A DNA stretch of 64,000 nucleotides from Desulfovibrio sp. (GTDB lineage Bacteria; Desulfobacterota; Desulfovibrionia; Desulfovibrionales; Desulfovibrionaceae): positions 1-64,000 of the forward strand of contig JAISZT010000057.1 of assembly GCA_031284485.1 (NCBI GenBank), written 5' to 3'. A program made the translations under genes and the position numbers. Below are positions 42,195 through 51,156 of the stretch, in pieces; the first letter of the stretch is position 1; each line of letters starts with the position of its first letter. Under the pieces are notes generated by a model. That model was not told where the DNA came from. It saw only the letters and a list, made by a program, of their open reading frames with translations, and made no database searches.

Positions 42195-46477
<4,283 letters not shown>

Positions 46478-46488
46478 GGAACGCGCTT

Positions 46489-47571
46489 ATGTACCGTAAC
46501 GCAAAAAATGTCGGGTATTACATGATAGGCCGGGGATGTCTGTCTCAACTGGGGGATATTCTGTCTCCCCTGCGCGGCGCCAGCAAAAAAAACCCGGCGG
46601 TCTTCTTTTTTGATCACTATTTCAAAAACGGCGCGCTTGCCGCCCGGTTGCCCGTGGAAGACCGGGACTTGACGGTGTACGTGGACACCGACAAGGAACC
46701 CACGACCCAAAGCGTGGACGCATACGCGCAACAGGTGAAAGATTTTTTGTCCGGCGGCAGGCCCTGCGCGCTGCTGGCCTTTGGCGGCGGCGCGACAATG
46801 GACACCTGTAAATGTGTCGGCAATTTGCTGACCAACCCCGGAAAAACGGAGGACTACCAGGGATGGGAGCTTGTCAGGCGCCCGGCCCCCCATAAAATCG
46901 CCGTGCCCACGCTTGCCGGCACCGGCTCTGAAAGCTCACGCACGGGCATCGTCTGCAATGAGGCGAAAAAACTGAAACTTGGCATGAACAGCGACTTCAC
47001 CATGTTTGAGCAGGTGATTCTGGACGCCGACCTGACGGCCACCGTGCCGCGCAACCAGTATTTCTACACGGGCATTGACACGTACATGCACTGCTTTGAA
47101 AGCATTTCGGGATCGTACCGCAACGCCGTCGTGGACGCCCTGGCCGAAAAAGCCATGAGCATGTGCAAAAACATTTTTCTTTCTGACGACATGATGAGCG
47201 ATGAAAACCGTGAGCGCATGATGATAGCCTCCTACCTCGGGGGCATGGCCGCCGGTTTTGTGGGAACGGTGCATCCGGTTTCCGCCGGTCTGAGCATGGT
47301 GCTGCACATGCCGCACGGCATTGCCAACTGCTACGCGCTTTCTGTGCAGAAAGACATATATCCTGAAGAATATAAAGATTTTATGGAGATGCTTTCACGT
47401 CAGCGCATTGATCTGCCCAAGGGCATCTGCGACAATCTGACCGACGCGCAATACAATGACCTGTATGAAGCGAGTATTGTGCATGAAAAACCGCTTACCA
47501 ACAAACTTGGCCCGGATTTTAAAAAAATTCTGACCAGGGAAAACGTTATAGAGCGTTTCAAGCGCATGTAA
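46489..47571 (+). CDS. kdnB: KdnB-like iron-containing alcohol dehydrogenase (Kdo 8-oxidase candidate)
   Basis: 360 residues. It belongs to the iron-dependent alcohol dehydrogenase group and resembles Shewanella KdnB, which oxidises the C8 hydroxyl of Kdo. FGGGATMDTCK near residue 100 binds nucleotide, PTLAGTGSESSRTGIV near residue 143, KLGMNSDFTMFEQVILD near residue 165, YTGIDTYMHCFESISG and MPHGIANCYAL hold the metal ligands. The start at 46489 has TGAGGAAC before it. The pairing with a DegT-type aminotransferase in the next gene is the KdnB/KdnA arrangement. It could also act on a related sugar acid. Confidence 0.78.
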   Translation: MYRNAKNVGYYMIGRGCLSQLGDILSPLRGASKKNPAVFFFDHYFKNGALAARLPVEDRDLTVYVDTDKEPTTQSVDAYAQQVKDFLSGGRPCALLAFGGGATMDTCKCVGNLLTNPGKTEDYQGWELVRRPAPHKIAVPTLAGTGSESSRTGIVCNEAKKLKLGMNSDFTMFEQVILDADLTATVPRNQYFYTGIDTYMHCFESISGSYRNAVVDALAEKAMSMCKNIFLSDDMMSDENRERMMIASYLGGMAAGFVGTVHPVSAGLSMVLHMPHGIANCYALSVQKDIYPEEYKDFMEMLSRQRIDLPKGICDNLTDAQYNDLYEASIVHEKPLTNKLGPDFKKILTRENVIERFKRM

Positions 47572-47590
47572 CCCGGCAGGGGAAACTCCA

Positions 47591-48775
47591 GTGGACATAA
47601 AAATCAATTTCAGCGGCCGCTCGGTCCGCTATACGGAAGAGGAAATCGCCGTGGTCGTCGAGGCCATGCGCAACGCGGATCCCCTGACGCAGGGAAAATA
47701 CATGCGCGAGTTTGAAAGCCGGTTCGCGCGCTATCAGCAAGTGCCCGAAGGAACCTGCTTCACCACCATGAACGGATGCGCGGCCCTGGAAATGTCGGCC
47801 CAGCTTTGCCGCTTCGCTCCCGGCGACGAGTTTGTCATTCCGGCGCACACCTTTACCGCTTCGGCCTATCCTTACCTTAAAAAAGGCGCTCGCCCCGTAT
47901 GGGCGGATGTGGATCTGCGCACCCGCGTCGTGACGGCGGAGACGGTTGAAAAGGCGCTGACGCCGAAGACAAAGGCTGTCGTTGTGGTGCATCTTTACGG
48001 GTATGTGGCCGACATGCCGCAGATAGCGGCGCTTTGCCGTGAACGCGGTCTTGTGCTGATTGAGGACGCGGCTCAGGCCATAGGCGCGGAAATAGACGGA
48101 AAAAAAGCCGGCAGTTTCGGCGACATGGCGATATTTTCTTTTCATTCGCACAAAAATCTGACCACCCTGGGGGAAGGCGGCATGTTGTACGTGCGCGACC
48201 CGGCCCTTGCCGCCGTTGTTCCCGGCTTGCGACACAACGGTCATTGCGCCTACACCTTTGAGCGCCCCGATTACTGGAAGCCCGCCATGGGTAATGTGGA
48301 TGTTCCTGTGCTCGGGCAAGACATGCTCATGCCCAGCAATTACTGCCTTGGCGAAGTGGAATGCGCTCTCGGCGCAAAGCTGCTGGAGCGTATTGACGCC
48401 ATCAACGACGAAAAACGTGAAAGAGCGCTCAGATTCATGGACGGGCTTGCCGATTGCCCTGAACTGGAATTTCATCGTGTTGCTTCCCGCCGTCACAATT
48501 ATCACCTGCTGGCCGCCAGAATGACGACAGGCCAGGATATGCGCGACAGATTTCTGCGCGCCATGTCCGAAGAGAAGGGCATAAAATGCGTTGTGCAGTA
48601 CCTTCCTCTCAACCGTTATGATTTCTACAAACGCCTTGGCTGCGGGCAGGCCCGCTGCCCCAATGGCGACGCGTTTTTTGACTGTATGGTTTCCTTTCCT
48701 TTTCAGCACTGGCTTACTGAAGAAGACACGGCGTACATGCTGGCCGCGACGCGTGACGTATTGCGCGGTCTTTGA
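47591..48775 (+). CDS. kdnA: KdnA-like DegT/DnrJ aminotransferase (8-amino-Kdo synthesis candidate)
   Basis: 394 residues with a GTG start preceded by GGCAGGGGAAACTCCA. PLP-dependent sugar aminotransferase family: PAHTFTASAYPYL near residue 84, IEDAAQAIGAEIDGKKAGSF near residue 157, and SFHSHKNLTTLGEGG with the Schiff-base Lys188. In Shewanella KdnA transfers an amino group from glutamate to the C8 aldehyde made by KdnB. It starts 19 bases after kdnB. Other sugar aldehydes or ketones are possible substrates. Confidence 0.78.
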   Translation: MDIKINFSGRSVRYTEEEIAVVVEAMRNADPLTQGKYMREFESRFARYQQVPEGTCFTTMNGCAALEMSAQLCRFAPGDEFVIPAHTFTASAYPYLKKGARPVWADVDLRTRVVTAETVEKALTPKTKAVVVVHLYGYVADMPQIAALCRERGLVLIEDAAQAIGAEIDGKKAGSFGDMAIFSFHSHKNLTTLGEGGMLYVRDPALAAVVPGLRHNGHCAYTFERPDYWKPAMGNVDVPVLGQDMLMPSNYCLGEVECALGAKLLERIDAINDEKRERALRFMDGLADCPELEFHRVASRRHNYHLLAARMTTGQDMRDRFLRAMSEEKGIKCVVQYLPLNRYDFYKRLGCGQARCPNGDAFFDCMVSFPFQHWLTEEDTAYMLAATRDVLRGL

Positions 48776-48796
48776 TGAACTGAATCGGAACCGTTT

Positions 48797-50425
48797 GTGA
48801 AAGAACGCTGCGTCATCATACCGGCCGTCAAAAAGAATGCCGTCATACCGGATCAACTGGTCAAAAAACTGGCCGGGGTCACGCTTATCGAGCGCGCCAT
48901 ACATACGGCGCGCTCCGTGGTTTCTGGCGATGATGTCATCGTCACCACGGACAGCGAGGAAATTTCGCTGATTTGTGAAAGATCCGGCGCAAGGTTTCGC
49001 TACAACCGGAATTTGCGTTTCAAAAGTCTTGATATTGTGGCTGAATTGCGTGACACGCTCTGTGAACTTGCCTCTCGCTATGCGCACTTTCTCATATTGC
49101 GCGCTTCCTGTCCGCTGCTGACATGGACAGACGTGGAGGACGCCTGGAAAAAATATCTGGACGCCGACGCGGACAGTCTTGTAACCGTCAAAAGCGTGCG
49201 GCAGCGCATCTGGAATGTGCGTGACGGCACACTGGAAAACCTGCTGGACGATAAAGCCGGAGAGGGGGAACAGTTTCTGGTGGAAAGCCGCGCCCTGATT
49301 ATTGTGCGGGGAAGTTTGCTGGCCGATTCCAATAATTTCAAAAAAAAACCGAAAATCATTCCTTATTTTCTCAACGAAAGGGCCATTGAAATCCAGAGTT
49401 ACCAGGACTGGTGGATATGTGAGCACCTGCTTTTGCGACGCCACGTTGTCTTTGTCGTGGCGGGCTATCCCGCCATCGGCATGGGGCATGTGTACCGGGC
49501 GCTTATGCTGGCGCATGAAATCACCAACCACAGGATCACTTTTGTCTGTACGCGCCAAAGCGAACTGGCTGTGGAAAGCATCGCCAGAAAAGACTACCGC
49601 AGTGTGCGCCAGGGGCAGGAACCACTGGCGGAGGTCGTGCTGAAGCTCCGTCCTGACCTCGTTGTCAACGATATCCTGAATACGGATGTTCCCTATATGG
49701 GGCGGCTGACCGCCGCCGGCGTAAAATGCGTCAATTTTGAGGATGAAGGCCCCGGCGCCGATATGGCGCAGCTTGTGATCAACGCGCTTTATGAAAGCGC
49801 CCGGAGCACTCGGCGCCTGCGTTGCGGGCCGGAATATTTTTGTTTGCGCGACGAGTTCGCGGGCGCCGCGCGCAATAAATTGCGCGAGGATGTGAAAGTG
49901 TTGCTCATCACCTTCGGGGGCACGGATTCCCGCAATTTTTCCCGGCGCGTGTTTGACATTGTTGAGCCGATCTGCCGAGGTATGGGCATTGCCGTCCGCC
50001 TTGTGGCGGGGCCCGGCTACGCGCATAAAAAATCCATGGAAGACCATTTGCAAAAACTGGACAATCCCCTGGTTGAATTCACCTGGGCCACCAACGCGAT
50101 GAGCCGCATGATGGAAGGCGCTGATCTGGCTATCTGCTCGGCCGGACGCACCGTGTACGAGCTTGCCCACATGCGCATCCCCGGCATGGTGGCGGCGCAT
50201 CATGAACGTGAGGCGCGCCACACATTTGCCCGCCCACGTAACGGGTTCACTTTTTTAGGGATTATGGACAGGATTGACGATGTAAAAATACGCAACGTGT
50301 TTCTGGCGATGCTGCGTTATCCCAGACGGGCGCGGTTTTTTGAGCGGCAAAGCCGTCTTGACTTTACCGGAAACAAGACAAGGGTAGTGGGATTGATGCT
50401 GGAGAAAATCACAAGGCAAGGATAA
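48797..50425 (+). CDS. CMP-sugar synthetase fused to a PseG-like domain
   Basis: 542 residues, GTG start. Residues 1 to about 215 resemble acylneuraminate/Kdo cytidylyltransferases (CVIIPAVKKNAVIPDQLVKK, VTTDSEEISLICERSGA, LILRASCPLLTWTDVEDAW), although the usual RxGSK(R) loop is altered. Residues from about 215 match PseG/UDP-sugar hydrolases and related GT-B proteins: GYPAIGMGHVYRALMLAHE, FEDEGPGAD, LITFGGTD and CSAGRTVYELAHM. PseG removes UDP in pseudaminic acid synthesis. The fusion suggests both domains act on one acidic-sugar route. It follows kdnA by 21 bases. The exact substrate is not clear. Confidence 0.72.
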   Translation: MKERCVIIPAVKKNAVIPDQLVKKLAGVTLIERAIHTARSVVSGDDVIVTTDSEEISLICERSGARFRYNRNLRFKSLDIVAELRDTLCELASRYAHFLILRASCPLLTWTDVEDAWKKYLDADADSLVTVKSVRQRIWNVRDGTLENLLDDKAGEGEQFLVESRALIIVRGSLLADSNNFKKKPKIIPYFLNERAIEIQSYQDWWICEHLLLRRHVVFVVAGYPAIGMGHVYRALMLAHEITNHRITFVCTRQSELAVESIARKDYRSVRQGQEPLAEVVLKLRPDLVVNDILNTDVPYMGRLTAAGVKCVNFEDEGPGADMAQLVINALYESARSTRRLRCGPEYFCLRDEFAGAARNKLREDVKVLLITFGGTDSRNFSRRVFDIVEPICRGMGIAVRLVAGPGYAHKKSMEDHLQKLDNPLVEFTWATNAMSRMMEGADLAICSAGRTVYELAHMRIPGMVAAHHEREARHTFARPRNGFTFLGIMDRIDDVKIRNVFLAMLRYPRRARFFERQSRLDFTGNKTRVVGLMLEKITRQG

Positions 50426-50430
50426 ATTTT

Positions 50431-51156
50431 GTGTCGAAAAAAGTAAAAACGGGCAGGACGGTGGCCGTCATTCAGGCGCGGCTCGGTTCAAGCCGGCTGC
50501 CCATGAAATCCCTGCTCTGTCTGCGTGATCTGCCCGTGGTCAACTGGGTGGCCCACAGGCTTTCGCAAGCCTCGCGGCTTGACGGCATTGTGGCGGCCAT
50601 TCCGGACACAAGGCTTGATCAGGCGCTGTTTGAACATTTGCGGCGTCACAATATACCGTGCGTCGCCGGCCCGGAAGACGATGTGCTGGCCCGGATGCTG
50701 CTGGCCGCCAAAACTTGTGATGCCGGCCTTGTGGTGCGCGTGTGCGCGGACAATCCCCTGATCTGGGGGGAAGCCGTAGACCGTTTGCTGGCGCACTATG
50801 AAAGTGCGGCCTGCGATTACGCCTACAATCACATACCCAGAAACAATCTCTGGCCCGACGGCCTGGGGGCGGAAGTTGTTTCCCGCGATCTTCTGGAAGG
50901 ACTTGAGGCGAAGGCGAAGCAGCCCTCACAGCGTGAACACTGCCTGAATTATATATGGGACAATGCCGCGAGTTTTCGTATTTCCACGTTTGACCCGGCG
51001 GAACCCTGGCTGCGACGTCCCGACCTCAAGCTGGACATGGACAGCCCGGAAGATTTCCGGCGCCTGTCGCTGCTGCCTTTGCATCCGGATATGGACGCGA
51101 AGGCCATTGTGAGGATTTTTCGGAAGACATTGCCACAATCCGCATCCGTCTTGTAG
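50431..51156 (+). CDS. SpsF-like cytidylyltransferase
   Basis: 241 residues, GTG start, 5 bases past the fusion gene. VAVIQARLGSSRLPMKSLL near residue 11 is the nucleotide-binding signature of the SpsF/glycosyltransferase-2-like cytidylyltransferases; VRVCADNPLI carries the metal-binding Asp. Such proteins activate acidic or aminated sugars in spore-coat, flagellar-glycan or surface polysaccharide pathways. As a second cytidylyltransferase in this operon it may be the enzyme that makes the CMP form of the final sugar. It ends the operon. Confidence 0.75.
   Translation: MSKKVKTGRTVAVIQARLGSSRLPMKSLLCLRDLPVVNWVAHRLSQASRLDGIVAAIPDTRLDQALFEHLRRHNIPCVAGPEDDVLARMLLAAKTCDAGLVVRVCADNPLIWGEAVDRLLAHYESAACDYAYNHIPRNNLWPDGLGAEVVSRDLLEGLEAKAKQPSQREHCLNYIWDNAASFRISTFDPAEPWLRRPDLKLDMDSPEDFRRLSLLPLHPDMDAKAIVRIFRKTLPQSASVL

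Follow-up and report, generated by a model that had tools for sequence, protein, structure and literature searches.

Nonulosonic acids (NulO) are surface sugars that hosts and phages recognize and that many flagella require; two of them, legionaminic acid (Leg) and pseudaminic acid (Pse), carry a 9-deoxy end. Desulfovibrio are gut and symbiotic sulfate reducers. Among the described systems closest to the genes considered here, Shewanella KdnB is given as a 3-deoxy-D-manno-octulosonic acid (Kdo) 8-oxidase (PMC5125639), and Bacillus subtilis genetics shows that spsG is required to make Leg and spsF to transfer it onto the spore (PMC7439481). We analyzed a four-gene cassette in a 64,000-nucleotide stretch of Desulfovibrio sp. 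DNA (contig JAISZT010000057.1; hereafter the window), which encodes a KdnB-like dehydrogenase, an aminotransferase (AT), a two-domain fusion protein and an SpsF-like cytidylyltransferase. An earlier note on this DNA had taken the first two genes for the KdnB/KdnA pair that makes 8-amino-Kdo (Kdo8N) in Shewanella. Our analysis points very strongly to a NulO pathway rather than a Kdo8N pathway. The best explanation of the whole, which we regard as fairly probable, is that the cassette makes and activates a NulO resembling sialic acid but with an extra amine, in agreement with the note's more general suggestion of an uncharacterized aminated acidic sugar. The features of the locus are as follows.

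46489..47571, + strand: KdnB-like gene (360 amino acids [aa]), Fe-containing alcohol dehydrogenase (Fe-ADH) of the NulO-cassette clade
47591..48775, + strand: DegT/DnrJ/EryC1/StrS aminotransferase gene (394 aa), of a cassette-specific family, not KdnA
48797..50425, + strand: fusion gene (542 aa), degenerate fold of a synthetase for cytidine monophosphate (CMP)-NulO plus a PseG/MurG-like domain of the GT-B glycosyltransferase fold
48797..49435, + strand: N-terminal domain of the fusion (aa 1-213), CMP-NeuAc/CMP-Kdn synthetase fold
48815..48859, + strand: replaced motif in the fusion (aa 7-21), IIPAVKKNAVIPDQL, where an intact homologue has IPARGGSKGIPRKN
49436..50422, + strand: C-terminal domain of the fusion (aa 214-542), PseG/MurG-like, a probable hydrolase of sugars linked to uridine diphosphate (UDP)
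50431..51156, + strand: SpsF-like cytidylyltransferase gene (241 aa), a probable CMP-NulO synthetase
44304..45617, + strand: eno (enolase), upstream housekeeping neighbor and synteny anchor outside the pathway
45614..46477, + strand: folD, upstream housekeeping neighbor and synteny anchor outside the pathway

The four open reading frames (ORFs) are intact and co-directional, at the positions given in the earlier note (46489-51156), with intergenic gaps of 19 (KdnB-AT), 21 (AT-fusion) and 5 bases (fusion-SpsF). Their products belong to the Fe-ADH, DegT aminotransferase, CTP_transf_3 plus Glyco_tran_28_C-like/PseG, and CTP_transf_3 families, respectively. In the source genome (G000; 2.54 Mb in 138 contigs, 100% complete), the cassette lies on contig C85. 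The order KdnB-AT-fusion-SpsF is kept throughout the genus and in other phyla, which shows that the arrangement is not due to chance and that the last two genes do belong with the first two, as had been proposed. The neighboring eno-folD pair is frequent in the genus, but not universal. A single transcript with eno and folD, as the note had suggested, is a possibility that fits the 11-base gap between folD and kdnB; a promoter/terminator scan was uninformative, with terminator-like sites at chance level.

The decisive evidence for a NulO pathway comes from the distribution of the cassette. A scan of GTDB genomes with a profile of the fusion protein identified 79 loci, 22 of which were tabulated. 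KdnB, AT, fusion, SpsF and a NeuB-type synthase are encoded in one cluster, typically in that order, in 18 of the 22, with the fusion and NeuB spaced by 1.6-2.7 kb; three of the remaining loci are cut by contig ends and the fourth is a Riflebacteria variant. Five-gene clusters occur in Desulfovibrio cuneatus DSM 11391 (together with a LIC12162-family gene), Campylobacter concisus, Sulfuricurvum, Nitrospina, Omnitrophota, Wallbacteria, Bacteroidota and Desulfarculus. The NeuB proteins of these loci are mostly 60-71% identical to the single NeuB-type synthase of the window genome, which, as in the rest of the genus, is unlinked (here on contig C42) and adjoins a gene for a LIC12162-family transferase. 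Clustering of the five genes across phyla identifies this unlinked NeuB as the missing fifth gene of the cassette. Surveyed in this way, the neighborhood is one of NeuB and not of the Kdo genes that the Kdo8N reading had implied.

Co-occurrence within the genus tells the same story: NeuB is present in all cassette-bearing genomes (35/35). Of two genomes lacking KdnB and the fusion, one (G006) also lacks NeuB, and the other (G008) has NeuB and no LIC12162. NeuB of the window genome (PF03102, 2.4e-71; SAF, 5.9e-14) keeps its catalytic-type and SAF motifs and scores 317 bits against the Neu5Ac (N-acetylneuraminic acid) synthase model vs. 225 against PseI, both under cut-off. Its LIC12162 neighbor matches TIGR04331 with 372.8 bits (cut-off 225) and has no sequence relative in the PDB; a predicted fold of low confidence (predicted local distance difference test [pLDDT] 58.8) gave weak matches to WaaG/MurG-type GT-B folds. 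G006 keeps LIC12162 (L224:7426-9360) in spite of having neither KdnB, fusion nor NeuB, so LIC12162 may use another donor too. The NeuB-LIC12162 pair of the window genome is divergently oriented to adjacent genes that look fliD- and fliS-like by eye (L051:9602-15246); such neighbors were not seen around L056, L057 and L058. The cassette, NeuB and LIC12162 are also kept in reduced genomes of 1.4-1.6 Mb (L062 in G035, L063 in G009, and L175 in Candidatus Desulfovibrio kirbyi), suggesting an important role in the envelope.

How NeuB could be supplied with its substrate was assessed by family searches. Epimerase_2 (NeuC/WecB) is absent from the window genome, as from 20 of the 28 genus members searched, and a Neu5Ac pathway via NeuC was therefore rejected. 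A Leg/Pse route via PseB/LegB/PglF was rejected as well: none of these was among the nucleotide-sugar short-chain dehydrogenases/reductases (SDR) read in this genome, the best PF02719 matches being GalE, CDP-glucose dehydratase, RmlB, a TviC-type epimerase and a fragment on contig C123. On this short contig, an SDR frame interrupted by an in-frame TAG is accompanied by a PseF-like cytidylyltransferase and a phosphatase-like ORF (L230:1730-3817). With neither NeuC/WecB nor, as far as read, PseB/LegB/PglF, the KdnB-like protein, the AT and the PseG-like domain are the natural candidates for making the NeuB substrate, and the first two probably replace the usual dehydratase and aminotransferase, judging from gene content.

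The KdnB-like protein indeed resembles Shewanella KdnB (PDB 5k8c, E 9e-87, 41% identity), so this half of the proposed KdnB/KdnA-like pair stands. Its metal ligands Asp197, His201, His262 and His276 are invariant in 46 of 46 KdnB sequences. However, two kinds of KdnB exist in the phylum. The first, 38-45% identical to the window protein, mostly adjoins a KdnA-type aminotransferase (MPGFE...), with a KdsB-like gene next door at loci L127 and L134. The second is found in the genus of the window and in G149, whose sequence is identical to a Desulfarculus record. In a tree of 46 sequences (26 cassette KdnBs and 20 canonical ones, including 5k8c), the cassette proteins are separated from the canonical, Shewanella-type and KdnA-linked ones by a branch with 100/100 support. 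Clade-specific positions flank the metal ligand His262, i.e. Pro263 (Ala in canonical proteins) and Ala266 (canonical Tyr), changes that would fit a substrate different from that of canonical KdnB.

The AT is the half that did not stand. It is a DegT-family protein (PF01041, 4e-84) with the lysine motif FSFHSHKNLTTL. Its best matches in the PDB are sugar aminotransferases, perosamine synthases among them, and KdnA (5k8b) ranks far lower. With KdnA-type enzymes it shares 27.7% identity on average (range 26-28%), whereas these share a mean of 64% among themselves and the AT is 55-62% identical to the cassette ATs of Desulfarculus, Nitrospina, Omnitrophota, Campylobacterota and Bacteroidota. What had been called KdnA is therefore a different enzyme. 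Among pathway models it scores best to PseC (223 bits, under the PseC cut-off); a plasmid search returned a single match, at 41%, and nothing closer.

On this basis, we propose the following pathway. The KdnB-like dehydrogenase would oxidize the C6 primary alcohol of a UDP-N-acetylhexosamine to an aldehyde, which the AT would convert into a 6-amino sugar. The PseG-like domain would remove UDP, perhaps with inversion at C2, and the unlinked NeuB would condense the free sugar with phosphoenolpyruvate into a NulO with a C9 amine. SpsF would then form the CMP sugar, to be transferred, in all likelihood, by the LIC12162-family protein. The product, the individual reactions and their order are all inferred from gene content, conservation, folds, motif loss and the linkage and co-occurrence of NeuB. 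The amine is placed at the terminal carbon by analogy with KdnB as Kdo 8-oxidase, and its introduction there by KdnB and the AT is rather likely; that this happens before NeuB, on the nucleotide sugar, has a little less than an even chance. The full proposal is a tentative one: a new NulO route in which an Fe-ADH and an AT aminate C6 of UDP-GlcNAc or UDP-GalNAc to yield a C9 amine in place of the 9-deoxy end of Leg and Pse, a catalytically dead NeuA domain, tethered to the UDP-sugar hydrolase, serves as scaffold or sensor, and which is distributed across six phyla or more and kept even in reduced Desulfovibrio genomes of 1.4-1.6 Mb.

Several points weigh against this proposal. Two further weak SDR matches lie beyond those read, in a genome that is an assembly of 138 contigs. 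The PseG-like domain is by fold as near to MurG as to PseG, and falls under the PseG cut-off. Two Bacteroidota clusters have an SpsF-like gene of low similarity (22-32%), with an altered motif in one of them. The Riflebacteria locus (L216:8612-17058) has the fusion, NeuB, an SpsF-like gene and LIC12162 with neither KdnB nor a DegT AT nearby; a class-III aminotransferase is found in their place, which may alternatively be viewed as a naturally occurring replacement of the amination step. Finally, the only characterized relative of the dehydrogenase uses a free ulosonic acid, making oxidation after NeuB equally natural chemistry by analogy.

This last point leads to the alternative that survives best, in which the same genes make a NulO but KdnB and the AT act after NeuB, oxidizing and aminating C9 of the free NulO, much as KdnB/KdnA do at C8 of free Kdo, before activation by SpsF. 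It requires an identical gene set and agrees with the homology to a Shewanella enzyme acting on a free ulosonic acid, as Kdo 8-oxidase (PMC5125639). However, an unmodified hexosamine would have to reach NeuB in a genome with no NeuC/WecB, leaving the PseG-like domain as sole possible supplier, and the residues beside His262 set the two kinds of KdnB apart. We consider this order of steps somewhat unlikely.

A second alternative concerns the fusion protein, the best profile match of which is to PseG (TIGR03590, 112.4 bits, cut-off 153.55); TIGR03584 PseF (1e-10) and CTP_transf_3 (6e-7) also match. An AlphaFold2 model made with 30 homologues (pLDDT 90.6) contains two folds, as assessed by Foldseek and structure superposition, which confirms the NeuA-type and PseG/MurG folds anticipated from the sequence. 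The C-terminal domain superposes on PseG (3hbm, Z 23.3 over 265 residues) and, over a greater length, on MurG (1nlm, Z 26.9 over 308 residues). The latter match would suit a MurG-like glycosyltransferase that passes a sugar to a carrier, a function that we find doubtful: PseG is the top profile, the histidine of the GMGH (GxGH) motif is invariant (74/74), and NeuB requires a free sugar, yet the genome has no NeuC. The domain is hence viewed as a probable UDP-sugar hydrolase.

The N-terminal domain has a CMP-NeuAc/CMP-Kdn synthetase fold (9t4z, E 4e-12; 6ifd, Z 22.1; 1eyr also matched). In active CMP-sugar synthetases, motifs of the RGGSxGxPRKN and D-x-D types bind cytidine triphosphate (CTP) and metal. 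Neither is kept here: in the genus and in other lineages, the CTP motif is replaced by IPA[VI]KKNAVIPDQL or near variants in every member read, and the metal site, DID in the related fusion of G038, is E-I-Q in the window protein. On these grounds, the domain is in all likelihood not a working CMP synthetase. The earlier note's suggestion that one chain combines activation with a GT-B step is accordingly unlikely, as the CTP-binding motif is gone from the cytidylyltransferase half. Since the replacement motif is itself conserved, the domain seems retained for some role, which we propose to be structural, regulatory or repurposed, although cytidylyl transfer is still unlikely. The strong conservation across phyla, beyond what a decaying domain would lead one to expect, might even mean that KKNAVIPDQL is a new site and the domain an active nucleotidyltransferase with another nucleotide or chemistry. 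We judge this improbable, because most clusters have an adjacent SpsF whose motif is intact and the D-x-D-type site has changed as well (E-x-Q-like). A related, active-looking fusion in G038, of the same order but another family (L052:828-3523; 30% identity), keeps IPARGGSKGIPRKN and DID and has NeuB immediately behind it, within a cluster of O-antigen-like type; this NeuB is 65% identical to that of the window genome, and KdnB was not found in G038 at E 1e-40. The degenerate fusion probably descends from one of this type, in which the motif was intact.

With the CTP motif lost from the fusion, the separate SpsF-like protein (PF02348, 2e-16; PDB 6oew, 1.4e-18) is the better candidate for activation. 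It has an intact QARLGSSRLPxK, and QARxGSxRLPxK is kept in most members, suggesting that it is probably the real CMP-activating enzyme of the cassette.

The weakest alternative is Kdo8N synthesis of the Shewanella kind, with a different purpose for the fusion and SpsF. It draws on the identity to KdnB and on a KdsB encoded elsewhere in the window genome, but is very improbable and was rejected: the AT differs from KdnA, the KdnB-like protein falls into a clade of its own, and the genes cluster with NeuB and not with kdsB or waaA. In addition, other Desulfobacterota have KdnA-KdnB loci of a different appearance (two adjoin a KdsB-like gene), and KdsB also occurs in genus members without KdnB.

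The cassette varies between lineages. A WcbI-family gene (PF18588, polysaccharide biosynthesis) lies between KdnB and AT in some Desulfovibrio relatives (L066:4302-5171, L067:7133-7999 and L080:4186-5217), and a methyltransferase gene is inserted in C. concisus and Chitinophagales, insertions that suggest further decoration of the sugar. A DUF4910/DUF2172/HTH_47 protein with a weak M28 peptidase match is encoded next to NeuB or SpsF at L201:13336-14634, L203:5772-7088 and L123:2495-3868, and in several phyla the cassette is closely followed by genes for radical SAM/SPASM-type enzymes (L203:8070-9149, L206:13287-14252 and L211:15067-17219).

Searches of the open-license PMC literature, in which absence is weak evidence, found no description of this gene set or of a natural 9-amino-9-deoxy NulO. 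Among the strain-specific genes listed for Leptospira interrogans, kdnB is annotated beside neuA genes (PMC8510873), which hints that similar sets were noticed without interpretation. The sfmABCDE flagellin cluster of Shewanella has NeuB with other partners (PMC3765264), and the Pse/Leg genes for C. concisus flagellin were described without the cassette (PMC3219677). A conserved cassette that is found in Desulfovibrio, C. concisus and several other phyla, and whose "KdnB / Kdo 8-oxidase" labels mislead, implies an unrecognized amino-NulO. KdnB homology alone is thus an unsafe predictor of Kdo8N, and a NeuA-like match in the fusion is no sign of a CMP-sialate synthetase. The proposal is directly testable in D. 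cuneatus DSM 11391, which is cultured and has the entire set in one cluster.

In its logic, the cassette resembles a NulO pathway that has taken up the oxidation and amination of Kdo8N synthesis. Kdo8N synthesis in Shewanella oneidensis has a homologous Fe-ADH and a pyridoxal phosphate-dependent sugar aminotransferase side by side, presumably taking an alcohol via an aldehyde to an amine. However, the AT of the cassette is of another DegT subfamily, its KdnB forms a separate clade, and the pair is accompanied by NeuB, a PseG-like fusion and SpsF in place of Kdo genes. With a KdnB of the canonical clade, a KdnA-type AT and linkage to Kdo/lipopolysaccharide genes (KdsB, WaaA) all lacking, the cassette is not a member of this pathway. 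The Leg pathway of B. subtilis (SpsM-C-D-G-E-F) also has a DegT AT, a PseG-like SpsG, a NeuB-like SpsE, SpsF and UDP-linked precursors (PMC7439481), whereas the cassette has a KdnB-like protein instead of an SpsM/PglF-type dehydratase, and its PseG is fused to a NeuA-like fold. The Pse pathway (PseB-C-H-G-I-F) shares a PseG-like domain, a DegT AT (closest to PseC), a NeuB-family synthase and a cytidylyltransferase, but no PseB was found, the AT and PseG domain are under the PseC and PseG cut-offs, and NeuB is nearer to the Neu5Ac-synthase class. The Neu5Ac pathway (NeuC-NeuB-NeuA) shares a NeuB homologue and the NeuA fold, but here NeuC is missing, the NeuA fold is without its catalytic motif, and a dehydrogenase and an aminotransferase are added. 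Lacking a dehydratase or NeuC step as far as read, the cassette thus stands outside the Pse, Leg and Neu pathways as defined.

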